Assembly (NCBI GenBank): GCA_029834535.1
Contig: JAQMWT010000024.1
Coordinates: 62,001-126,000 of the forward strand
Direction: 5' to 3'
Source of the DNA: Chrysophaeum taylorii
Taxonomy: Eukaryota > Sar > Pelagophyceae > Pelagomonadales > Pelagomonadaceae
DNA: 64,000 nucleotides
The notes beneath the pieces are model-generated. The model searched no databases and was not told where the DNA came from. It saw nothing but the letters and a program-made list of their open reading frames with translations. This document shows positions 399 to 12,527 of the stretch, piece by piece (the first letter of the stretch is position 1; each line of letters begins with the position of its first letter). A program made the position numbers and the translations under genes.

Positions 399-3300
399 AT
401 GGCTGCCTACGCCCAAGCCGTGCGGTGGGGCGGCCAGCCGACGAGGAGGACGACGAGGACGGGGGACACGAGTTTCGCCGAGGCCGAGCTGTCGAAGGCG
501 AAGGAGGCGCGCGATCTGTGGGCACCGCTGGAGCGCGGTATGGCGCTTCGCGGCGACGAGGCGACGCTCTACGACGAGGAGCTGGGCGCCATATCTTACG
601 TGGAGCTCTCAGACCGCGCGACGCGTCTCGCGGCGTGGCTGAATGCGCGCGTGGCGGGCCCCGGGTCGACCGTGGGGGTGCTGTTGCACAACTCGACGAA
701 GGTGATCGAATGTCACTACGCGATCGCGAGGATCGGGTGCGTCGTTCTCAACCTCAACACGCGGCTGAGCGCGAGCGAGCTCGCGTACGTCCTCGAGGCG
801 GCCGAGTGCGAGGTAGTTATATGCAGCGAATCGGATCGTGTCGACGCCCGGGTCGTGGTGCGGTCCGACTTGGAGCCCGAGGAGTCCGAGTCGTCGTCGT
901 CGTCGTCGTCGTCTTTCGTCGCGAAAAACGCCGGCGGCGCGGCCGAGATGTACTTCACGTCCGGCACGACGGGACGGCCGAAGGGCGTCGTCCTCGAGGC
1001 CGAGGTCGTGCTCCTCCACGCGCTCGGGTGCATGGTCGAGCACCGGCTCAAGGCTTCGGACGCGTGGCTCCACGCGGCGCCGATGTTTCATCTGGTCGAC
1101 GCCTACGCGATTTTTGCCATAACTTGGGTCGGGGGATCGCACGTTTCTATCCCCTTCAGCCTCGACGGGGTCATCGATGCCGTCCGAACTAAAGGCATCA
1201 CCGTCACGAATGTCGCGAGTACCATGATCACGATGCTGGTCTCGACGCCCGACGTCGCGGATTTGGGTAATTCGTTGGATTTGCTGTCGTGCGGAGGCGC
1301 GCCTCTCGCTCGGGCGACGGCGGCCAAGCTCCTGGCTGTTTATCGGAACGAATTTTTCCAGAGCTACGGCATGACCGAGTGCTGCGGGAAGATCGCGATG
1401 TCCCTGATAGCCCCCGAGCTCCGGGCCACGCTGACGCCCGCCCAGACGATGGATCTCGTCTGCACGTCGGGCCGGCCGTTCCGATTGATGAACGTCCGCG
1501 TCGTCGATCCCGAGAGTGGCGAGGACGTCGGAGCCGGCGAGGTCGGCGAGGTCTGGATTAAGGGCCCGACGGTCTTTGGTGGGTACCACAAGCTCGATCC
1601 CACTGTTGGGTTTCGCGGCGAATGGTTCCGCACGGGGGATCTCGCGTTTACGAGACCAGACGGCTACTTGACGATCACCGACCGCCTCAAGGACATGATA
1701 CTCGTCGGCTCGGAGAACGTATATTGCGTCGAAGTCGAGCGCGCGCTCCACGAGCACCCCGACGTCATCCAGGCCTGCGTCTTTGGGGTCCCCGACGCGG
1801 CCCTCGGGGAGCGCGTCAAGGCGGTGGTCCGCGCGCGCCGGCCTCTCGATCCCAAAAAACTGACGCTCTTCGCCTCCACCCTCCTCGCCGACTTCAAGGT
1901 CCCGCAGATCGTCGAGTTCGTGGACGAGTTCCCGCTCACGGGCAGCGGCAAGATCGCCAAGGGCGAGCTCAAGAAGAAAATGAAGACCAAGTCCGACGAC
2001 CTTCTGCTCGGGGTTGACTGGGAGCGGGTCGGCCCGCCGCCGGCAGCTGCTGACGTCGCCTCTGTTGTCTGCGTCGTCGTCTCTGGTTGCGGCGACGACA
2101 AGAACCTGGCGTCGATGCTAAGTTGCGGCGGCGAGGTGGTGCGGCTCGAGGCTTGCGACGGGCTGCTGAGCGAGGCGGCGCTCGCGGCAGACGCCGCGGC
2201 GCTCGAGCGAACTCGCGGCAGACGCCGCGTCTTGTTCGTGGTGGACGAGACCACCAGCCCGCACGTCGCTGTCCGCCACTCGCTCGCCGTCGCGAGGCGC
2301 GAGTTCGAGACCTACGCTGTGGTGGCTCGCGCGGGCGCCGTCTGGGGCTTCTGGCGGTCGTTCGCCACCGAGACCTCCGCGACGGTGCGGCTCGTCGAGG
2401 TCGTCGGCTCGGCTCGCCGCGAAGACGTTCTGGCCGTCGCCTTTCCCCGAGGAGGAGGCTCCTGCAACGAGGAGCGAAGGCTGGTGGATGGGATGGTGTA
2501 TCGCCCCGTGCTCAAGCCGCGAACACCCCCCGCCGTGGCGCTGCCAGATTTTCGCGGCACGACGCACCTCGTCACCGGCGCGAGCGGCGGTCTCGGACGA
2601 GAACTCTCCGAGCGGCTCGCGGCCATGGGCGCGGCGAAGCTCGTGCTCGCGTCGCGCCGCGGCAATTCGTCGTCGTCGTCGTCGTCGATGACCGGTAGTA
2701 TCGAGGCTGTCGTCGTCGTCGTCGCCTGCGACGTCGCCGATCGATCGGCGGTCCGCGAGTTAATGGCTCGGTTTGGCCCCTTCGACGCGATCTGGCATCT
2801 CGCGGGCGCGGTCGACGACGGGTTCGCAAAAACGCTCTCGCCAGACCGCGTGCTTCGCGTGCTCAGACCCAAGGTCGACGGATCGCTCGCGCTCGCGGAA
2901 TTCTCGCCGCCGTCCACCAAGCTCGTCATGTTCTCGTCGGTCTACGGTCTCCTCGGGTCGCCTCAGCTCACGCACTACGCGGCGGCCAACGCCTTCCAAG
3001 ACGCGCTCGCGACCAGGAGGCCGAACTCTTTGTCCGTGAGCTGGGGCACCTGGGCCGACGCGGGCATGGCCCACCGGTTTGGGCCGGACTTTCGCAAATC
3101 GATCGAGGCCGCGGGCATGCGCATGATCGAGCTCGACGAAGGCTTCGACTTGCTTTTCCGATTGTACGCTACCGGCGAAACCGAAACCCACGCGGCCGCG
3201 ATCCCTGCCGACTGGAAGAAGTACGGCAGATCGAGACGTGGAATGAAGCCCCAGCCCCTCGCCGAGGCCCTAACCGAGGGTGCGGTCGTCGAAGACCCGC

Positions 3301-6300
3301 CGCGCGCCAAGACACCAGTAGACGATGCGCGCTCGAAGGTCCGCCGCGTGCTCAAAGAGGTGATCGGCCTTGGTTTTGACGACGACGACAAGGATGATTC
3401 GACGCCTCTCGCGACCTTGGGGGTGTCGTCGCTCCACGCCGTCGCCTTCGCGAACGCCCTGAGCGAGGCGACGGGCCTCGACCTCCCGCCCACTTTAGTC
3501 TTCGAGTGCGTGAGCGTCGCCGGCGTCGTCGAGCACATCTCTTCTTCCTCCTCCTCAACGCGAGACGACGAAACGAAAGTGGTGCGCCGCGTGCTCAAAG
3601 AGGTGATCGGCGTTGGTTTCGACGACGACGACAAGGATGATTCGTCGACGCCTCTCGCGACCTTGGGGGTGTCGTCGCTCCACGCCGTCGCCTTCGCGAA
3701 CGCCCTGAGCGAGGCGACGGGCCTCGACCTCCCGCCCACTTTAGTCTTCGAGTGCGTCAGTATCTCGGGCGTCGCAGACCGCATCAAGCGCGGTCGTCGT
3801 CGTCGTCACGACCCCGTCAAACCACCACCTCAACAAATCCAGGAGGAGGAGGAGGCAAGGATGAAGAAGGTGGTGGGCGCCGCGTGCCGGCTGCCAGGAT
3901 CAGTCGACGACGTCGCGAGTCTCTGGCACAAGCTCGAGACTGGTTCGAACTGCGTGACGGCGCCGTTCGCGGGTCGACCCCACGCCGGCAGGCCGGCCGG
4001 CTACTTGAGCGCGGCGAGCATCACGTGCTTTGACGGCGAAGCGTTTGGAATGTCGCACGCCGAAGCGTGCGTCCTCGATCCCCAGCAGCGTCTCGCGCTC
4101 GCGTGCGGCGCGGAAACGCTGCAGTTCTTGGTCGACGCGAGCGACGACGTTTCGACGTTCGTCGGCGCGACGCAGGTGGACTACGCCAACGTCCTCGCGA
4201 AAGCCAAAGCGACCTCGGCCTACGAGGCGACGGGCGCCGCGACGATCGCTGCTATCGCGAACCGAATTCCCTACGTCTTCGATCTGAAGGGTCCGTCGGC
4301 GGCCGTCGACACGGCCTGCTCGTCGACGCTCGTCGCCCTACACCTCGCGTCGCAGCAGCCGACCAAAGGCGCGGTGGTGGGGGGCGTCAACGCGATTCTC
4401 TCGAGCCGCTGGTCCGACGCCTTTTCGCGCGCCGGAATGCTCTCGCCGACCCACCGGTGCGCCTTCGCGTCGGACGACGCCGACGGCTACGTTCGGGGCG
4501 AGGCTTCGAGCTTCGTGGCGTTGTTGGACGACCAAAAGGAGGAGCAGCAGCAGCAGCAGCAACGGGGGTTGTTTTTGTTTTTGGAGGGGGTCTCGGTGAA
4601 TCAGGACGGCCGGTCGAACGGCCTCACGGCGCCCAACCCGGCCTCCCAGGTGGCCATGCTGCGGCGGCGGCGGCGGCGAGCGAACGTCCCGGCCTACGTC
4701 GAAGCCCACGGCACCGGGACGCGTCTGGGCGACCCGATCGAGCTCGAGGCGCTGAGCAGGGTCTACGGCGACAAACGCGAGCCCTTGTTGACGGCGTCTC
4801 TCAAGTCGAATTTTGGCCATTCGGAGTGCGCGGCGGCGGGCTCCTCTTTGGTCAAGCTCGTGTGCCTCTCTTCACGGCGCGATGTTCCGATATCCCTGCA
4901 CGTCCGAAAGCTCAACTCGCACCTCGACTGGGCCAACCTCGGCGTCGAGGTCGTCGCCGCTCCGGGCGAGAGGCTTCGCGACCAAGAAGCGAGCCTGGCG
5001 TGCTCGGGCTTTGGCTTCGCGGGAACCAACGCCCACGCGGTCCTTCTAGCAGCACCACCAGCAACAGGCGTTGGTGGTGGTGGTGGGAAACGCCCCGCAG
5101 GCCCGGTCGTCGTCCTGGAGAGCCACTCGCGCGAGGGTCTGAAGGCGACGGCGCGGCGGTGGGCGCGGTTCGGCGGGTCGCTCGCGGGCGTCGCGGCGGC
5201 CAACGCGGCGCGCCGCAAGGTGTTCAAGCACTGCAACGGCGGCGGCGGCGGCTCGGTATGGCGCGCGGCCGCGCGGGACGAGGCCTCTCTCGAAGCGATC
5301 GCCGACGGCGAGGCTCCGGCGATAAAAAAGTCGGTCGCCAAGCCCAACGTCTGCGTGGTGTTCGCGGGCCAGGGTACGGCCTACGCCGGCATGGGCCGCG
5401 ATTTGTCGGTAGGGGACGAAGGCTTGGAGCGCGCGATTCGCGACGCGGCTCGAATCGCCGACGGCGTCACCGGGCTGGACGTGACGGGCGTTCTGTTCGA
5501 CCGCGAGAAACCCCCCGAGTCGAGGCTCCTCCAGCCGGCCCAGGTGTGCCTCCAGTACGCTGTTTTCGGGCGCCTCGAGGCAACATCTTCGGTTTTCAAG
5601 GAAAAGGCGACGGTGATGGTTGGTCATTCGCTCGGCGAAATTTCGGCGTGCGCGTGCGCGGGTCTCGCGACGCTCGAATCCGCGCTCGCCTTCGCGGCGC
5701 GTCGCGGCGCGGCCGTCGACGCGCTTCCGGCGGCTAGTTCGTGGGGCATGCTCGCGCTGCGAGGGTCGGAGGTTCCCGAGGGGTGCGAGCTCGCGGTCGT
5801 CAACTCGCCCGAGTCGGTGGTTGTCGCCGGCCCGACCGAGATTTTGGACGAGAAAAGCGAAGGAAAAAGGCTGAAAGTGGCTGCGGCGTTCCACTCTTCC
5901 GCGATCGAGCCCGCGCTCCCGGCGATCAAAGCGGCGGCGGCGGAATTAGTTGTCGATGAAAGTCCGCGCCGCTTTGATCGCCGGGTGGTCTCGACGCTGA
6001 CGGGAGTTGAGCTGGGATCCTCGAACGACGACGACGACTTTGACCACTGGGTTCGACACGCGCGCGAAGTCTGCGACTTTGCGGCGGCCGTGCGGACGGC
6101 CGCCGAGTCGTGCGACGTCTTCGTGGAGATCGGGCCGAGGCCGCAGCTCGCGCGCCACGTCGAAGCAACGTGCTGCGAAGAAGAAGTCGTGGTGCTGCCG
6201 ACCGTCTTCTCTTCTTCTAAAAGAAGAATAGATCTGTCATTGACGCGTTCGGGCCTCGACGCCCTCTGGATCCAGAACGAAACCCTGGAGGAGGACCTGC

Positions 6301-9300
6301 CCTTCCCGCCGCACGCGGTCTCCTACGAGAAGACGGCTTGGGTCCGTGATATGATCCCGGACGCCGGGGACTCCACCACCGAGGAGGAAGACTGGGCGTG
6401 TTCGCTGCGCCTCGTCTACGACACCGAGTGGGTCAAAGTGCTGCGTCCTACCGTAATTCAAGAAGAAGAAGAAGAATACGTTGTTTTCGAGCGAGCGCCT
6501 GGTGATGAGGACGTCGAGGCGGCGATCGAGGGGCTCGTGGAGGTGCTGCGCGCCGCCGCCGCCGCGGCGGACAAAAAGACGACGGTTATCGTGGTGACGA
6601 ACGGCGCCTGCGAAGGTCGAGACCTGGTGGGCGCGGCTCTGTGGGGGGCCTGCGAGACCGCGCGGCTCGAGGAGGAGAAATGGCGAAAAATCGTCTGCGT
6701 CGACGCCGAGGATCGCGACGAGGCAGTCGCGGCGGCCCTCGGGAATCCGGACGAGGTATCGCTGAGGATTAGGGACGGCGACGTCGAGGCGCTCAGATTG
6801 AGACCTTCGTTCGATCATCACGGCGCCTCGAGCCGGTGGTTCCCAAAAAAGAAATTCCCTAGAGGCGGAGCGGTTCTGATTACCGGCGGCGCGGGCGCCC
6901 TCGGGACGAGAGTGGCGCGCTGGCTTCGAGACGACCACGATCTTCGTCCGATCCTCCTCTCGCGGCGCGACGTGCCGTCGTCCGAGTTCGAAACAAGAAA
7001 ATGCGACGTTTCGGATTGGGACGCCGTGCGCGACGCTGTCGCGGCGATTCTGAAGAAGAAGAAAGACCGAATCGTTGGCGCGATTCACGCCGCGGGCGTC
7101 CTCGACGACGCGGCGGTCGCGACGCTCTCCGTGGACCAGATCAGGCGCGTCGTGCGCCCCAAAGTCCGCGGCGCCTTGAATCTCGCGCGGGCTCTGCGAG
7201 ACGAGGACGTCGACTTCGTCTGGTTCTTTTCGTCGGTGACGGCGCTCATGGGAAACCCTGGCCAGACGGTCTACGGCGCGGCCAACGCAGTCCTGGACGC
7301 GATCGCCCGCCGCTCCAACCACGAGCAGCAGCAAAATATCCTCTCGATACAGTGGGGGCCCTGGGCCGAGCGCGGCATGGCCGCGGGCGTCCTCCACAAG
7401 CTCGAGGCGAGCCCGTGGGTCCCCATGTCGGACGACGACGCCCTCGACGGCCTCGGCGCCGTCCTCAACAGCAATAACGACTCGTCGTCGTCGTCGTCGC
7501 GGGTCGTGGCCGTCGCCCGCCTCAACGCGCAGCGCATCCGAGCCTCGATGCGACGACACCCCCATCGAGCGCGCTTCTTTTCGAACATCATCTCCCCGCC
7601 GGAGGACCACCGCGAACGACGAGATTCGTCCGTTGGCGCCCCTCCGGCGGAAGAAGTTTTTGAAGATGGCGACGACCAACAAAACCAGGCGGTGCTGCTG
7701 CGCGCGGTGCTGGAGAAGAACGGCGCTTCGACCCGCGGGCTCGAGCGGTCGACGTCGCTCGCGTCGCTCGGGCTCGACTCCCTCGACAGCGCCTCGGTCG
7801 CTTCGGATTTGGCCGCGGCCTTTGGGATCATCGCGTCGCCCATGCTTCTCCTCGAGCTCGAGTCGTACGGCGACTTGTGCGACCGCGTCGCGCAGGAGGC
7901 GGTCGTGCCCGCAACCACCACCACCACAAAGAGGAGGAAGAAGAAGCCGTTTCGCTGCGATGATGGCGACAACGAGAGGTCGTCGTCCTTCGAGACCAAG
8001 CTGCGCGCGGTGCTGGAGAAGAACGGCGCTTCGACCCGCGGGCTCGAGCGGTCGACGTCGCTCGCGTCGCTCGGGCTCGACTCCCTCGACAGCGCCTCGG
8101 TCGCTTCGGATTTGGCCGCGGCCTTTGGGATCATCGCGTCGCCCATGCTTCTCCTCGAGCTCGAGTCGTACGGCGACTTGTGCGACCGCGTCGCGCGGGA
8201 GGTGCCACCACAGCAGCCGTTGGTGCCTCCCAAGCAGCAGCAGCAGCGCGCCAGCAGCAGCGAGGGGACGCTGCGCGCGGTGCTCGAGGCACACGGCGCT
8301 TCGACCCGCGGGCTCGAGCGGTCGACGCCGATCGCGTCGCTCGGGCTCGATTCCCTCGACAGCGCCTCGGTCGCTTCGGATTTGGCCGCGGCCTTTGGGA
8401 TCATCGCGTCGCCCATGCTTCTCCTCGAGCTCGAGACGTACGGCGACTTGTGCGATACTTGCGGCGGGAGCAGCAGCGTCCAGCAAGAAGTCGTCGTTAA
8501 ACCCGAACCCCGAGACGACGCTAGCGCGAACTCGTTCGCGGGCGAGGCGTTGGCGGCGATCGAGGCGCTCCGGCTGCCGTCGCCGGGATTCCTGCTGGCG
8601 TGGGGGTTTGCGAAAGTGGTGTGGTGGGCGACGCGCATCGCGTTCGTATTTTGGGCGGTGACCTCGGCGTTTCCCGAGTCGTACCAGGATCTCGTCGAGG
8701 GCGAGCGGCGCGAGAGGTGGGGCTGGTTCGCGTTGGAGTGGTGGATCTCGGGCACGATGGCGACGGTCGTGATGTGGGGCGCGTCGCTCGGGTTTGGCCT
8801 CGCGGCCAAGTGGGTGCTCGTGGGCGAATACAGAGAGGTGCGCCGAGAGTCGAACTGGTCGTGGTACGCGCTGAGGTGCGAGCTCGCGGACCGCGCGGTC
8901 GCGCAGGCCGAGGCGTCGTGTTTGTGGGCCGTCGCGGACGGCTCGGGGTGGCTGCGGGCGTGGTACCGCGCTCTGGGAGCGAACGTGGGCGCGAACGCGA
9001 TCCTTTCGCGCGGAGCGTGCGCGCGAGCGCCCGACCTCGTCGCGATCGGCGAGGGCGCGATTTTCGAGAGGGGAGCGGCGTGCGAGCCGTGTCGCCAGGA
9101 CCCCGGCGCCAAGTGCTTCGGGGCCCGGAAGGTCGTGGTCGGGCCGAGGGCGCGAGTCTCGGTGGAAGCGCGGGCGTACGGCGGATGCGTGCTCGGGGCC
9201 GGCGCGGTCGCCGAGCCCGGGGCGGCCGCGACGGGCTTGGTGCCGACGGGCGCTCGCGCGACGGGCCACGGCGTCGTTTTTGGTCTCGAAAAAGCCGCCT

Positions 9301-12300
9301 CTCACCTCGAGTCGTCCTACTATTCTTCGTCGTCGTGGTTTTTGGATATTCTGGAGGCCGTGTGCCTCGTGGCGTTCGGAGCCGTCCCGGCGTCGATGCT
9401 CGCGGCCGTCGCCTACCACCTCTACGCGAGCGTCGCGGCCTCGTACGTCCTTTTCGGCACGTATCTGTGCTTCTTCGCGATCATTACGAAACGAGCGTTG
9501 CTCGGGGCGCGCCGCCGCGAGGACGTCGCCGTCGAGCTTGCGACCCAGTCGCTCGCGCGTCGAATGAGTTTCGCCGACCGCGCGGCCGCGTTGGCCGCGG
9601 AAAATTTCGTCGATCTCTTCTTTTCCTCGACGATAATCCAGAACCTCTGGCTCAACATGCTCGGAGCGGACGTCGCGTGGTCGGCGGACGTGGCTTGTTT
9701 CCGCGATTTCCGGGCCTCGACGGCCGAGTTTTTCCACGTCGGCGAGGGCGCCTTTTTGGCTGGAATTCCGAGAATTTCGTGCGCGGAAGTCGTCGGCGAA
9801 GTCGTCCGATTCTCGGCAGTTCGCGTCGAGGCGGGCGCCTACGTCGGCTTCGGGGCGTCGCTGCTCCCGGGGACCACGGTCAAGACTGGAGGGGCTGTCG
9901 CCGATTCGGCTTTGGTCGGTCCGCGTCGCGTCGTCGAATCGCGAACGACGATCGTCGGCGTCCAAGGCTACTCCGACCGCGAGATCGCCTTCAAGAGGAG
10001 GAGACCTGACTTATTAGTAACAACAACGTCGTCGGAACCGACGCCGACCTACCACCTCATATTGTTGACGTGCTTGGGCTTCGCGGTCGGGCTCGAGTAC
10101 GCGTTGATCAGCGCGTCGCTCCGCGCCTGCGCTTTCGTCGTCGCGACCGTCGGCGGGAAGTCGCGTTCTCCGAGCGCTACTCTGCTCGCGATACTCCCGT
10201 TCGTGCGGTTGTTGGCGGGATGCGCGGCGACGCTCGCCGCGCTCCTTCACAAGCGCCTGGTGCTGGGAACAATCCGTCCGCTCGACGACGACGATCACCA
10301 CCGCACGTCGTGGCGGCCGCGGAGTTTCGGGATCATCGCCTGGCTCGTCCAGTTCCGCCTCAACATCGCGGTCGACGCGTGGTTCGAGCCCCTGGCGTTC
10401 ACGCCGCTGATAGCAGCGTTATGGCGTACGATGGGCGCTTCGGTCGGGCCGCGCGCGCGCCTCGCGCGCCTCGGTCCCCCCGACCACGACGCTCTACGTG
10501 TAGGTTCGCGCGCTTACCTCGGCGCTACGGGCGTCGTCTACGCGCACGACTTTGCGGGGGGTGGTCTCGGCTTCAAACGGTGCGTGATTGGCGACGACGT
10601 CTCGGTGTTCGGGCCCTCGGCCGTGCTCCCCGGCACGCGCCTCGCGCCCGGCGTCTCGCTCGCTCCGGGCTCGATGACTCTGGCTGGAACCTACGAGAAG
10701 CGCGACCTCCACGGCCTCTACAAGGCGAATCCGGCGCGACCCTGCATGGGTCCGGCCATTCCCCCCGACGACGCGCCGTCCTCGTTGTTCGACGACCGCG
10801 CCGACGCCGACTGGCTTTTGAAGGGGGACAACGTCCGGCCTACCCCGAACCGTCTCCTCGACGACGCGTTTCGCCTCGTGGTTTCGGCTTCTTCTTCTTC
10901 TTCTTCTTCTTCTTCTTCTTCTTGTTGGAAGAAGACTTCTTCCAAGAATAAGAAGAAGAAGCAGCAGCAGCTTCCGTCGTCGTCGTCGTCCGAGGAGGTT
11001 CCGCGCGCGGTGCCGGTCGCGGCGTCGTCGTGGGGCAAGGACGACAAGACGCCCTGCGCCGCCGTCGTGGTCGAGCCGCCACAACCCGAAACGAACGAGG
11101 ACGCCACGACGCCGCGCCTTCGATTCGCTTTGGCGGTCGCGGCCGTCGCCGTCGCCGTCGCGGTCGCCCCGCTCGCGTCGGCGTTAGGCGCGGGAGCCTG
11201 GTGGTGGTGGTGGCTGAACAGCACCGACGACAAGACCGGCGTTGTTGTTCCTTCTTTCGAATCGCGAGAAGAAGACCAGAAGAAGATCCTGGTGGCCGTC
11301 CTGCTCGGAAGCGACGAGGAGTCGTGGGCGCGAGAGAAGGACCTCTGGCGAGCGTGCTGCATGGTCGACGCGACCCGAGCCCTCGCGCGCCGTCGGATCG
11401 CCGAGGCGCCGGTCCCGGCGGCCATCGCGTGCGCGACGAGTCCCCGCGCTCTGATGGAGAAAATCGAAAGAGCGACCAAACATCAGAACACACGACAACA
11501 ACAGCAGCAGCGGGTGGCTCTCCTGTTTGGCGGCGAATCGCTGTACGCGGGCGTCGCCGACGGGCTGTGGGAAGGGTGCGACGAGTTCCGGCGCGCCGCG
11601 CGGCGCGCGATCGACGTTTTCGCGGCCGAGGGCGTCGCCCTTCGATTCGGGACGGCTTTGGTTCCGCGGGACACGAAGGAACGCAACGCGCTCGCGTTTG
11701 TCGTCCAGTACGCGCTAGCTCGCCTCGTCTGCGAGTCTTGGGACCTCCGGCCCGTGGGAGTTTTGGGGTATTCGATCGGCGAGCTCGCCGCGGCGGTGAT
11801 TTCTGGGACCCTTACCCTCCGAGACGTCGCGCGTCTCTTCGCCGCGACTACGTACTCTCGCTTCGACGATCGCGAAGGCGCGATGGCCGTGGTTTCTCGC
11901 ACGACCCGGTCTAGTTTGGTTCGGGATCTCGGAGACGCCTGTATTGCGGCCGAGTATTCGGACGAAACCTTTATGATTGCGGGCGCAGCCCGAGCCGTTC
12001 GAGAGGCTCGTTTTCGGTTAGAAAGTCGCGACGCGACCTGTACCATTCTCAAGGAGGTTCGGCGCGCGTACCATTCGCCGCTCCACTCGGTCCAGACCGC
12101 CAAAGACTTTGTTCTTCTTCCCATTAGTAATAATAATAATCGTGCTGGCGAGCGAGAGCGATTACCCCCCTTCTATTCGTGCGCCCTCGGCGCTCGAATC
12201 CCAGAAAAGCAGTGCCGGCCCAAGACGACGACGGACCTCGGAGCCCTCTACGACGCCCCAGTTCTGTTTTCGAGGGCGATCGACGCCTTAATAGAAGAGG

Positions 12301-12527
12301 CCGCCCCAACCTTGTTGCTCGACCTCTCCCTCAAGGCGGACCTCTCCTACTACTACTCCACCTGGTGCCAAGACAACAAGAAGAACAACAATAATAAGCA
12401 CCAGCTCCCCCGCGCCATCCCGACCCTCAGGCCCGACACCAACGCCTCCGAGCGCCTCGCCCTCGCCGCAGCAGACCTCATCCTCTCCGGCGCGTCGCTC
12501 TCGCCCTCCGCCGCCCTTGGTTTATAA
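399..12527 (+). CDS. Giant modular type I polyketide synthase with Pls-like membrane/hexapeptide region
   Basis: Single uninterrupted 4042-codon frame. Domains by approximate residue: adenylate-forming acyl ligase 40-530 (SGTTGRPKG near 187, YGMTE near 322, GEWFRTGD near 407, C-terminal GSGKIAKGE); KR1 720-930 (TGASGGLG, Ser847, Tyr860, VDD); tandem ACPs with Ser1011 and Ser1093; KS 1155-1550 (Cys1307 in DTACSS, His1437, His1474); AT1 1648-1930 (GHSLGE, Ser1744); KR2 2150-2330 (Ser2279, Tyr2292, LDD); three near-identical ACPs (Ser2461, Ser2562, Ser2652); 2730-3445, six predicted TM helices in pairs separating three hexapeptide-repeat blocks, the layout of the poly-lysine synthetase C-terminus; poly-Ser linker; TM near 3574-3605; second AT 3705-4042 (GYSIGE, Ser3792; His3892). 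No thioesterase, DH or ER is visible. Known: ligase-ACP loads a starter, KS/AT extend, KR reduces. Inferred: membrane-bound synthase whose terminal region handles or ligates the ACP-bound product. Domain calls are strong; product unknown. Confidence 0.95.
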   Translation: MAAYAQAVRWGGQPTRRTTRTGDTSFAEAELSKAKEARDLWAPLERGMALRGDEATLYDEELGAISYVELSDRATRLAAWLNARVAGPGSTVGVLLHNSTKVIECHYAIARIGCVVLNLNTRLSASELAYVLEAAECEVVICSESDRVDARVVVRSDLEPEESESSSSSSSSFVAKNAGGAAEMYFTSGTTGRPKGVVLEAEVVLLHALGCMVEHRLKASDAWLHAAPMFHLVDAYAIFAITWVGGSHVSIPFSLDGVIDAVRTKGITVTNVASTMITMLVSTPDVADLGNSLDLLSCGGAPLARATAAKLLAVYRNEFFQSYGMTECCGKIAMSLIAPELRATLTPAQTMDLVCTSGRPFRLMNVRVVDPESGEDVGAGEVGEVWIKGPTVFGGYHKLDPTVGFRGEWFRTGDLAFTRPDGYLTITDRLKDMILVGSENVYCVEVERALHEHPDVIQACVFGVPDAALGERVKAVVRARRPLDPKKLTLFASTLLADFKVPQIVEFVDEFPLTGSGKIAKGELKKKMKTKSDDLLLGVDWERVGPPPAAADVASVVCVVVSGCGDDKNLASMLSCGGEVVRLEACDGLLSEAALAADAAALERTRGRRRVLFVVDETTSPHVAVRHSLAVARREFETYAVVARAGAVWGFWRSFATETSATVRLVEVVGSARREDVLAVAFPRGGGSCNEERRLVDGMVYRPVLKPRTPPAVALPDFRGTTHLVTGASGGLGRELSERLAAMGAAKLVLASRRGNSSSSSSSMTGSIEAVVVVVACDVADRSAVRELMARFGPFDAIWHLAGAVDDGFAKTLSPDRVLRVLRPKVDGSLALAEFSPPSTKLVMFSSVYGLLGSPQLTHYAAANAFQDALATRRPNSLSVSWGTWADAGMAHRFGPDFRKSIEAAGMRMIELDEGFDLLFRLYATGETETHAAAIPADWKKYGRSRRGMKPQPLAEALTEGAVVEDPPRAKTPVDDARSKVRRVLKEVIGLGFDDDDKDDSTPLATLGVSSLHAVAFANALSEATGLDLPPTLVFECVSVAGVVEHISSSSSSTRDDETKVVRRVLKEVIGVGFDDDDKDDSSTPLATLGVSSLHAVAFANALSEATGLDLPPTLVFECVSISGVADRIKRGRRRRHDPVKPPPQQIQEEEEARMKKVVGAACRLPGSVDDVASLWHKLETGSNCVTAPFAGRPHAGRPAGYLSAASITCFDGEAFGMSHAEACVLDPQQRLALACGAETLQFLVDASDDVSTFVGATQVDYANVLAKAKATSAYEATGAATIAAIANRIPYVFDLKGPSAAVDTACSSTLVALHLASQQPTKGAVVGGVNAILSSRWSDAFSRAGMLSPTHRCAFASDDADGYVRGEASSFVALLDDQKEEQQQQQQRGLFLFLEGVSVNQDGRSNGLTAPNPASQVAMLRRRRRRANVPAYVEAHGTGTRLGDPIELEALSRVYGDKREPLLTASLKSNFGHSECAAAGSSLVKLVCLSSRRDVPISLHVRKLNSHLDWANLGVEVVAAPGERLRDQEASLACSGFGFAGTNAHAVLLAAPPATGVGGGGGKRPAGPVVVLESHSREGLKATARRWARFGGSLAGVAAANAARRKVFKHCNGGGGGSVWRAAARDEASLEAIADGEAPAIKKSVAKPNVCVVFAGQGTAYAGMGRDLSVGDEGLERAIRDAARIADGVTGLDVTGVLFDREKPPESRLLQPAQVCLQYAVFGRLEATSSVFKEKATVMVGHSLGEISACACAGLATLESALAFAARRGAAVDALPAASSWGMLALRGSEVPEGCELAVVNSPESVVVAGPTEILDEKSEGKRLKVAAAFHSSAIEPALPAIKAAAAELVVDESPRRFDRRVVSTLTGVELGSSNDDDDFDHWVRHAREVCDFAAAVRTAAESCDVFVEIGPRPQLARHVEATCCEEEVVVLPTVFSSSKRRIDLSLTRSGLDALWIQNETLEEDLPFPPHAVSYEKTAWVRDMIPDAGDSTTEEEDWACSLRLVYDTEWVKVLRPTVIQEEEEEYVVFERAPGDEDVEAAIEGLVEVLRAAAAAADKKTTVIVVTNGACEGRDLVGAALWGACETARLEEEKWRKIVCVDAEDRDEAVAAALGNPDEVSLRIRDGDVEALRLRPSFDHHGASSRWFPKKKFPRGGAVLITGGAGALGTRVARWLRDDHDLRPILLSRRDVPSSEFETRKCDVSDWDAVRDAVAAILKKKKDRIVGAIHAAGVLDDAAVATLSVDQIRRVVRPKVRGALNLARALRDEDVDFVWFFSSVTALMGNPGQTVYGAANAVLDAIARRSNHEQQQNILSIQWGPWAERGMAAGVLHKLEASPWVPMSDDDALDGLGAVLNSNNDSSSSSSRVVAVARLNAQRIRASMRRHPHRARFFSNIISPPEDHRERRDSSVGAPPAEEVFEDGDDQQNQAVLLRAVLEKNGASTRGLERSTSLASLGLDSLDSASVASDLAAAFGIIASPMLLLELESYGDLCDRVAQEAVVPATTTTTKRRKKKPFRCDDGDNERSSSFETKLRAVLEKNGASTRGLERSTSLASLGLDSLDSASVASDLAAAFGIIASPMLLLELESYGDLCDRVAREVPPQQPLVPPKQQQQRASSSEGTLRAVLEAHGASTRGLERSTPIASLGLDSLDSASVASDLAAAFGIIASPMLLLELETYGDLCDTCGGSSSVQQEVVVKPEPRDDASANSFAGEALAAIEALRLPSPGFLLAWGFAKVVWWATRIAFVFWAVTSAFPESYQDLVEGERRERWGWFALEWWISGTMATVVMWGASLGFGLAAKWVLVGEYREVRRESNWSWYALRCELADRAVAQAEASCLWAVADGSGWLRAWYRALGANVGANAILSRGACARAPDLVAIGEGAIFERGAACEPCRQDPGAKCFGARKVVVGPRARVSVEARAYGGCVLGAGAVAEPGAAATGLVPTGARATGHGVVFGLEKAASHLESSYYSSSSWFLDILEAVCLVAFGAVPASMLAAVAYHLYASVAASYVLFGTYLCFFAIITKRALLGARRREDVAVELATQSLARRMSFADRAAALAAENFVDLFFSSTIIQNLWLNMLGADVAWSADVACFRDFRASTAEFFHVGEGAFLAGIPRISCAEVVGEVVRFSAVRVEAGAYVGFGASLLPGTTVKTGGAVADSALVGPRRVVESRTTIVGVQGYSDREIAFKRRRPDLLVTTTSSEPTPTYHLILLTCLGFAVGLEYALISASLRACAFVVATVGGKSRSPSATLLAILPFVRLLAGCAATLAALLHKRLVLGTIRPLDDDDHHRTSWRPRSFGIIAWLVQFRLNIAVDAWFEPLAFTPLIAALWRTMGASVGPRARLARLGPPDHDALRVGSRAYLGATGVVYAHDFAGGGLGFKRCVIGDDVSVFGPSAVLPGTRLAPGVSLAPGSMTLAGTYEKRDLHGLYKANPARPCMGPAIPPDDAPSSLFDDRADADWLLKGDNVRPTPNRLLDDAFRLVVSASSSSSSSSSSSCWKKTSSKNKKKKQQQLPSSSSSEEVPRAVPVAASSWGKDDKTPCAAVVVEPPQPETNEDATTPRLRFALAVAAVAVAVAVAPLASALGAGAWWWWWLNSTDDKTGVVVPSFESREEDQKKILVAVLLGSDEESWAREKDLWRACCMVDATRALARRRIAEAPVPAAIACATSPRALMEKIERATKHQNTRQQQQQRVALLFGGESLYAGVADGLWEGCDEFRRAARRAIDVFAAEGVALRFGTALVPRDTKERNALAFVVQYALARLVCESWDLRPVGVLGYSIGELAAAVISGTLTLRDVARLFAATTYSRFDDREGAMAVVSRTTRSSLVRDLGDACIAAEYSDETFMIAGAARAVREARFRLESRDATCTILKEVRRAYHSPLHSVQTAKDFVLLPISNNNNRAGERERLPPFYSCALGARIPEKQCRPKTTTDLGALYDAPVLFSRAIDALIEEAAPTLLLDLSLKADLSYYYSTWCQDNKKNNNNKHQLPRAIPTLRPDTNASERLALAAADLILSGASLSPSAALGL
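3331..3786 (+). repeat. Tandem ACP duplication (2 copies, 246-bp offset) inside the synthase
   Basis: Two carrier-protein units follow KR1. Each carries the motif LGVSSLHAVAFANAL, with the phosphopantetheine serine at residues 1011 and 1093. The nucleotide sequence is nearly identical between copies, including synonymous positions, which indicates recent duplication or gene conversion. The motif has Ser in place of the usual Asp before the attachment serine (VSSL instead of xDSL). Confidence 0.9.
7696..8463 (+). repeat. Tandem ACP triplication inside the synthase
   Basis: Three carrier domains with the motif LGLDSLDSASVASDL occur in a row, offset by 303 and 270 bp, with attachment serines at residues 2461, 2562 and 2652. 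The ~195-bp cores are almost identical at DNA level. The linkers between them (Thr/Lys-rich, then Gln-rich) differ, so only the domain core is homogenised. Multiple carriers in series are known from polyunsaturated fatty acid synthases, where they raise flux. Confidence 0.93.

Follow-up and report, generated by a model that had tools for sequence, protein, structure and literature searches.

How an algal polyketide synthase (PKS) without a thioesterase releases its product is an open question, and a gene of the alga Chrysophaeum taylorii bears on it. The gene occupies positions 399–12527 on the forward strand of the window, the whole 64,000-nucleotide stretch analysed here (assembly GCA_029834535.1, contig JAQMWT010000024.1, positions 62,001 to 126,000), and forms one stop-free frame of 4042 aa. 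Its product joins the modules of a type I PKS to a terminal region of the kind found in Pls and PosA, the synthetases of epsilon-poly-L-lysine and delta-poly-L-ornithine. The protein is probably a membrane-anchored type I PKS whose product leaves by acyl transfer and not through a thioesterase.

A polyketide synthase with a Pls-type end

Residues 2781–3430 match the NCBIfam profile TIGR02353 colinearly over positions 38–681 of 695 (E 7.7e-31, 107.2 bits). The earlier note had proposed a profile check of residues 2730–3450, and its outcome is that they are related to Pls; the opposite result is excluded. The score does not reach the curated cut-off of 423.1 bits, and the region is, to judge from its sequence, a distant homologue of Pls and not a poly-lysine synthetase. 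A hidden Markov model (HMM) from five bacterial plasmid Pls proteins gives 113 bits at residues 2786–3430 (profile 53–683 of 704), and one from 54 bacterial and archaeal Pls gives 123.9 bits, where none of 500 shuffled sequences exceeds 6.3; the reversed-sequence control is absent among the matches listed for the latter. The 54 sequences were obtained from 80 loci, 77 of them with a near-complete domain, after a 75% identity filter. When the whole genome (70.8 Mb, 697 contigs) is searched with TIGR02353, the window match has E 2.7e-28 and lies outside the noise of the control genomes, of which 13 of 14 match at E 0.001, two at E 1e-15 and one (Corynebacterium) at E 1e-20. Pfam reports merely a sub-threshold Hexapep repeat over this end. 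The region belongs to the superfamily of Pls-type terminal domains, to which it is significantly and colinearly homologous along most of the domain's length.

Upstream of it, Pfam scans give the order A-KR-ACP-ACP-KS-AT-KR-ACP-ACP-ACP (adenylation, A; ketoreductase, KR; acyl carrier, ACP; ketosynthase, KS; acyltransferase, AT). The Pfam matches comprise an AMP-binding domain (residues 52–397, its C-terminal part at 445–518), two KR, five PP-binding, one KS and one AT domain, and a weak second AT-like match at the C terminus. With KS, AT and ACP present and their catalytic residues in place, the protein is a type I PKS. No thioesterase was found in the Pfam scan of the 4042-aa protein at E 0.1, and likewise no dehydratase (DH) or enoylreductase (ER) domain. 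The features of the gene are as follows.

399–12527, forward strand: open reading frame of 4042 aa, uninterrupted, with even GC content at third codon positions (GC3)
540–1994, forward strand: adenylation or acyl-CoA-ligase-type domain (PF00501, E 6.4e-69; PF13193); A4 motif APMFHLVDAY, the Asp of FDxS absent
2541–3278, forward strand: ketoreductase 1 (PF08659); GxGxxG and S-Y-N retained
3342–3788, forward strand: two tandem acyl carrier domains (PF00550); Ser retained
3846–5198, forward strand: ketosynthase (PF00109/PF02801); Cys, His, His retained
5346–6203, forward strand: acyltransferase (PF00698); GHSLGE, AAFHS
6846–7388, forward strand: ketoreductase 2 (PF08659); LDD, S-Y-N retained
7701–8468, forward strand: three tandem acyl carrier domains (PP-binding); ACP serines located
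8583–10745, forward strand: whole Pls-type terminal region (TIGR02353, E 7.7e-31; bacterial-only HMMs; model pTM 0.83)
8583–8819, forward strand: transmembrane (TM) helices 1 and 2 (model helices 20–47 and 59–98); hydropathy supports the second only
8862–9305, forward strand: beta-helix block 1 (structure model, comparison with algal copies)
9336–9503, forward strand: TM helices 3 and 4 (hydropathy, model)
9546–9968, forward strand: beta-helix block 2 (structure model, comparison with algal copies)
10044–10262, forward strand: TM helices 5 and 6 (hydropathy, model)
10317–10745, forward strand: beta-helix block 3, carrying the conserved His (structure model, comparison with algal copies)
10545–10547, forward strand: codon of His3383, within the motif YAHDF; its conservation makes this residue the proposed catalytic base
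11124–11186, forward strand: extra TM-like hydrophobic segment downstream of the Pls region, residues 3576–3596 (hydropathy)
11466–12488, forward strand: extra C-terminal AT-like domain, GYSIGE (PF00698, E 2.1e-10; PDB match to the EryA2 synthase, E 2.7e-12)

Over 65 codons, the DNA of the first two of the three tandem ACPs at 7701–8468 is 99.5% identical, either because they were duplicated very recently or as an effect of the assembly.

The earlier note had read the protein as KS, AT, KR and ACP modules fused to a Pls-type end with six TM helices and three soluble blocks. The fusion is confirmed by the TIGR02353 match, the bacterial HMMs, the structure model and the paralogues; the A-KR-ACP-ACP loading part and the tail of a TM segment and an AT-like domain had been overlooked. 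The six-helix, three-block layout also holds. An AlphaFold2 model of the window region with 54 homologues (pLDDT 74.6, pTM 0.83) has helix pairs at 20–47/59–98, 271–295/299–326 and 507–545/550–579 (model numbering), with beta-helix strands behind each pair. A control model from bacterial and archaeal rows alone (first row L042; pLDDT 94.6, pTM 0.93) has the identical order of elements. With a hydropathy threshold of 1.5, five of the six expected helices are picked out (2788–2808, 2984–3004, 3010–3030, 3220–3240 and 3262–3282), but so are parts of the soluble KR2 and ACPs, which makes this weak evidence by itself; TM helix 1 lies under the threshold and is visible solely as a helix in the model. 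The region thus has the three soluble blocks and three TM pairs of Pls and PosA. Comparison of the modelled fold with the PDB gave weak matches to beta-helix, hexapeptide acetyltransferases. For PosA, the accessible text of PMC10522769 describes a model with six helices and three five-turn beta-helices packed into one domain of approximate three-fold symmetry.

Paralogues, activating modules and the block-3 histidine

Two further genes of the genome share the PKS-Pls domain order, with two ACPs and not three before the Pls region. On contig C10 the gene is a single frame of 3946 aa that runs through the ACPs and the Pls region; on C5 the domains are spread over frames of 2515 and 1575 aa, through an intron or a frame break. 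A near copy of the C10 gene on C297, with equal match scores, has KS and Pls in separate frames (2519 and 1882 aa) and is either a haplotig or a decaying copy. Identity between the window gene and C10 falls from 58% in the A domain to 25% in the Pls region, the ranges against both paralogues being 55–58% and 24–25%. In an unrooted tree with long branches (685 columns; 10 algal and 18 of the 54 bacterial and archaeal sequences), the trio is split from the 7 other algal and the 18 bacterial and archaeal sequences with support 100, and this split is the sole feature used. The extra hydrophobic segment and the AT-like tail belong to the window gene alone; the C10 and C5 genes stop shortly after the Pls region.

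The A domain resembles acyl ligases, with a fatty-acyl-CoA synthase (E 6.2e-62) and a feruloyl-CoA synthetase (E 9.7e-62) as its best PDB matches. Because it is acyl-ligase-like, the product is probably hydroxyacyl. At the place of the FD-x-S motif of five bacterial Pls, the trio's A domains have APMFHLVDAY. The gene thus departs from the single A-T unit with an amino-acid-type FDxS A domain that characterises Pls and PosA, both in this A4 motif and in the PKS modules that intervene. The KS Cys, His and His, the AT Ser and His, the Ser-Tyr-Asn of both KRs and the ACP serines are all kept in the trio. Both KRs of the window protein carry the DD pair, which goes with an R-hydroxyl.

Block 3 carries His3383, where the trio reads Y[AG]HDF. 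In the alignment a His occupies this position in 15 of 15 Pls selected independently of the motif, ten by the TIGR02353 profile alone (hand-picked from the phylum samples described below) and five plasmid Pls by tblastn with the window region. Of the 25 positions that never vary among these 15, 13 are unchanged in the window, one of them being His3383. Two residues found in all 15 are replaced in the window, the Gln two positions ahead of the His by Tyr and the acidic residue four positions behind it by Gly. The larger bacterial and archaeal set has the His in 54 of 54, a count that is not independent because the set was partly collected with a pattern containing the His motif. Within the alga, the His is found in all 14 copies with a readable last block (C24, C10, C5, two on C524, C27, C529, C390, two on C330, two on C488, C451 and C349), which represent about ten distinct sequences, with near-identical sets on C524, C330 and C488/C451; the last blocks of C309, C44 and some further loci lie outside this count. 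The copies cover three kinds of activating module.

Genome-wide, TIGR02353 has 73 matches at E 0.001 in 46 clusters (4.5-kb gap), of which many are weak and part were examined; some of the weak ones may be ordinary hexapeptide proteins. Pls-type regions also accompany FAAL-type fatty-acyl-AMP ligases, at L013/L014 (C390), L018/L019 (C330), L022/L023 (C488), L025 (C349), L027 (C44) and L123 (C351). Ligase and Pls region share one frame in L022 and L025, and some of these loci are near-identical tandem copies. The ligases of C488, C349 and C44 were assigned by a YHD/FHD motif and those of C330, C309, C390 and C351 by similarity and partly by YGLAE; NCBIfam FAAL matches occur on C330, C488 and C349. 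Several ligase/Pls pairs lie in separate frames and would be fused through introns. A KS near the C390 Pls gene was considered as part of a fusion and ruled out, as it forms a separate 392-aa frame. Other Pls-type genes adjoin A domains of the non-ribosomal peptide synthetase type, where Gly aligns at the Asp position for C27 and C524, and a residue other than Asp for C529. The A-T-Pls-type genes L015:2973-8687 (C27) and L016/L017 (C524) are nearer to bacterial Pls and have FGxSE in the A domain and HTVENM as block-3 motif. The FAAL-linked Pls genes are possibly a larger story than the PKS fusion.

The fusion was also sought in prokaryotes. Contigs were scanned with the peptide patterns [LV]QTHLF[EH]D and [TVE][AEH]PLWS[TKG]FV, and the best 80 of 583 relatives were kept; because it was gathered with these patterns, the set leans to classical Pls and the His motif. 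Single-sequence phmmer searches with the window domains (E 1e-8) found no KS, AT or KR match in the Pls frames of these best 80 of 583 bacterial and archaeal relatives, and no KS frame in the fetched flanks. Phylum samples matched TIGR02353 at E 1e-15 in 3 of 292 cyanobacteria, 27 of 396 actinobacteria, 27 of 398 Pseudomonadota and 21 of 294 planctomycetes; the phylum names follow from seed loci, and myxobacteria and other phyla lie outside the screen. Among the 78 matching genomes of the 1380 screened, with two or three candidates scored per genome and some matches being single blocks or contig ends, no PKS-Pls fusion was found, and the longest open frame with a match had 1695 aa. In the planctomycete sample (e.g. 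G1171:C138, G1343:C30), frames of about 300–390 aa match a single block of the Pls profile; these may be relatives of the Pls domain that have one block in place of three, or else ordinary hexapeptide proteins. A viral contig collection held no match to the window Pls region or to the A-KR1 part of the trio. One contig of that collection, L128 (IMGVR_UViG_3300031372_000055), carries a bacterial-type Pls gene that is 40% identical over query residues 5–706.

The host is eukaryotic, as the earlier note had assumed. The genome has 84 LHC-type matches, and the best PDB matches of one LHC are fucoxanthin-chlorophyll proteins (FCPs; E 5.3e-80), which identifies an ochrophyte-type alga. Five of ten scanned neighbour frames match Pfam, with eukaryotic-type SNF2, Rad52, proteasome and RMC1 matches and also GT8. 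No biosynthetic gene cluster was seen around the PKS-Pls gene in the 10 frames scanned out of 49 of at least 200 aa, none of the five Pfam matches being an evident biosynthetic partner.

Release of the acyl chain

The Pls-type domain is most likely, on homology, an acyl-ACP-dependent acyltransferase that releases the chain onto an acceptor. LpxA and LpxD, which are among the hexapeptide proteins that form the PDB relatives of the Pls profile, offer the comparison: they have a left-handed beta-helix in three units, a fold that the Pls-type region is modelled to share. They use an acyl-ACP donor and a catalytic His, and they are soluble homotrimers acting on sugar nucleotides. The window region, in contrast, is one predicted membrane-embedded chain fused to its own ACP.

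The proposed course is as follows. The N-terminal acyl-ligase domain would activate a carboxylic acid and load it onto the first ACP pair, where KR1 would reduce the keto group of the loaded unit, if one is present. One or a few rounds of malonyl extension by KS and AT would follow, and KR2 would leave a 3-hydroxy group. Since DH, ER and thioesterase domains were not found, the chain on the last ACPs would be a hydroxylated acyl group. The three membrane-spaced left-handed beta-helices may form one pseudo-trimer that acts like LpxA/LpxD-type hexapeptide acyltransferases, with His3383 of block 3 as the putative base that allows an O- or N-nucleophile to attack the ACP thioester. Candidate acceptors are another hydroxyacyl unit, giving a polyester, or a lipid, an amine or a sugar, among which the sequence does not discriminate. 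The residue changes beside His3383 suggest an acceptor other than that of the poly-amino-acid synthetases. Together with the absence of FDxS, they make poly-amino-acid synthesis by the window enzyme appear unlikely; polyester formation is possible and just one option. The AT-like tail of the window gene may act in cis to provide or edit acyl groups.

The strongest alternative, a doubtful one, is that the region is a polymerase coupling ACP-bound hydroxyacyl units to one another, so that a polyester or oligoester would form at the membrane in the way that bacterial Pls couples diamino acids. Two KRs would yield the hydroxyls and three tandem ACPs could carry several units, but such ACP repeats are also known from enzymes whose product is not polymerised. 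The Tyr and Gly that replace the Gln and the acidic residue of all 15 independent Pls speak against it, and to our knowledge no polyester comes from this alga, no search for one having been made. In its favour, tested members of the homologous domain family polymerise, according to the accessible text of PMC10522769 and PMC7179176. The interpretation in the earlier note, of which homology, layout, fusion and eukaryotic host have stood, had offered such a polymerising role beside transfer of the acyl product; on present sequence data polymerisation is a possibility.

It is less likely still that the terminal region is catalytically dead and serves as a membrane anchor or scaffold, the product being released by hydrolysis in trans. 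The Pls region has diverged much further within the trio than the A domain, and of 69 near-invariant positions in the 54 Pls the window keeps 30 and alters 39. Despite this divergence, however, all three paralogues retain the His and Y[AG]HDF, and the remaining 11 algal copies with a readable last block have the His as well.

Very little speaks for an assembly or gene-model artefact, in which two genes, one for a PKS and one Pls-like, would stand in frame by chance. The C5 copy and the C297 copy of C10 are split over two frames, but the window gene is free of stops over 12 kb with a steady GC3 (0.69–0.88 across all 17 windows of 250 codons), the C10 paralogue likewise runs as one frame through ACPs and Pls, and the domain order recurs at C5. 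That the gene comes from a bacterium in the culture is the least credible explanation of all: the 12-kb frame is intronless and the probable source culture contained bacteria (PMC10366177, as far as its accessible text goes), but the same stretch has the SNF2, Rad52, proteasome, GT8 and RMC1 matches, the protein contains poly-Ser and poly-Asp runs, and no comparable fusion occurs in the best 80 of 583 bacterial and archaeal loci or in the phylum samples.

Closest systems and significance

Compared with Pls and PosA, the window protein shares the three beta-helix blocks with paired TM helices, the near-full profile match and the block-3 His. It differs in its PKS modules upstream in place of one A-T unit, its acyl-ligase-like A domain, its score below the cut-off, the altered residues beside the His and the added TM and AT-like tail. 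A eukaryotic protein with a Pls-type C-terminal region is already known in Epls of the fungus Epichloe festucae, which, according to the accessible text of PMC7179176, has the order A-T-C1-C2-C3, is 51% identical to Streptomyces albulus Pls and makes poly-lysine, without a PKS part. Algal type I PKSs with an N-terminal ligase, as described in the accessible parts of PMC4661987 and PMC10366177, resemble the window gene in placing a ligase-type loading domain before PKS modules; unlike for that gene, the main text of PMC4661987 has no occurrence of hexapeptide, beta helix or transmembrane.

The earlier note knew of no described eukaryotic enzyme with this layout. A Pls-type end on a PKS was indeed not found in the literature searched, but left-handed beta helix (LbH) domains in single-KS, AT-containing PKSs had already been noted, in the accessible text of the C. 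taylorii genome paper (Davison et al. 2023, PMC10366177). These LbH-containing PKSs are probably the same genes as those considered here; the accessible main text of that paper has no occurrence of pls, lysine or transmembrane. No paper was found that joins PKS, Pls-type end and alga or that names TIGR02353, and nothing nearer than PMC10366177, though such zeros depend on wording and are hence weak; the accessible parts of PMC10756674, PMC11837247 and PMC11211512 have nothing on a PKS-Pls fusion. The homologous terminal regions, the fungal Pls enzyme and LbH PKSs probably of this alga are thus already in print separately. New, as far as the literature was searched, is that the PKS ends in a near-full-length Pls-type membrane domain with the His, that three paralogues have this end and that FAAL modules share the domain.

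A wider proposal is speculative and rather unlikely: that in this alga, perhaps in pelagophytes at large, the Pls domain has turned into a general membrane acyl-joining device on PKS and FAAL modules, which would polymerise hydroxyacyl chains into polyesters or attach them to give acylated polymers of wall or mucilage, and so constitute an unrecognised eukaryotic route to lipid biopolymers. If true, Pls-type domains would not be limited to cationic amino acids. Should the Pls-type region be what releases the PKS product, it would join two families that have been studied separately, offer His3383 as a candidate catalytic residue and predict acyl conjugates or polyesters made at the membrane. 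With 46 clusters in the genome and three kinds of activating module among those examined, lipid-type chemistry in this alga may depend on the Pls-type domain.
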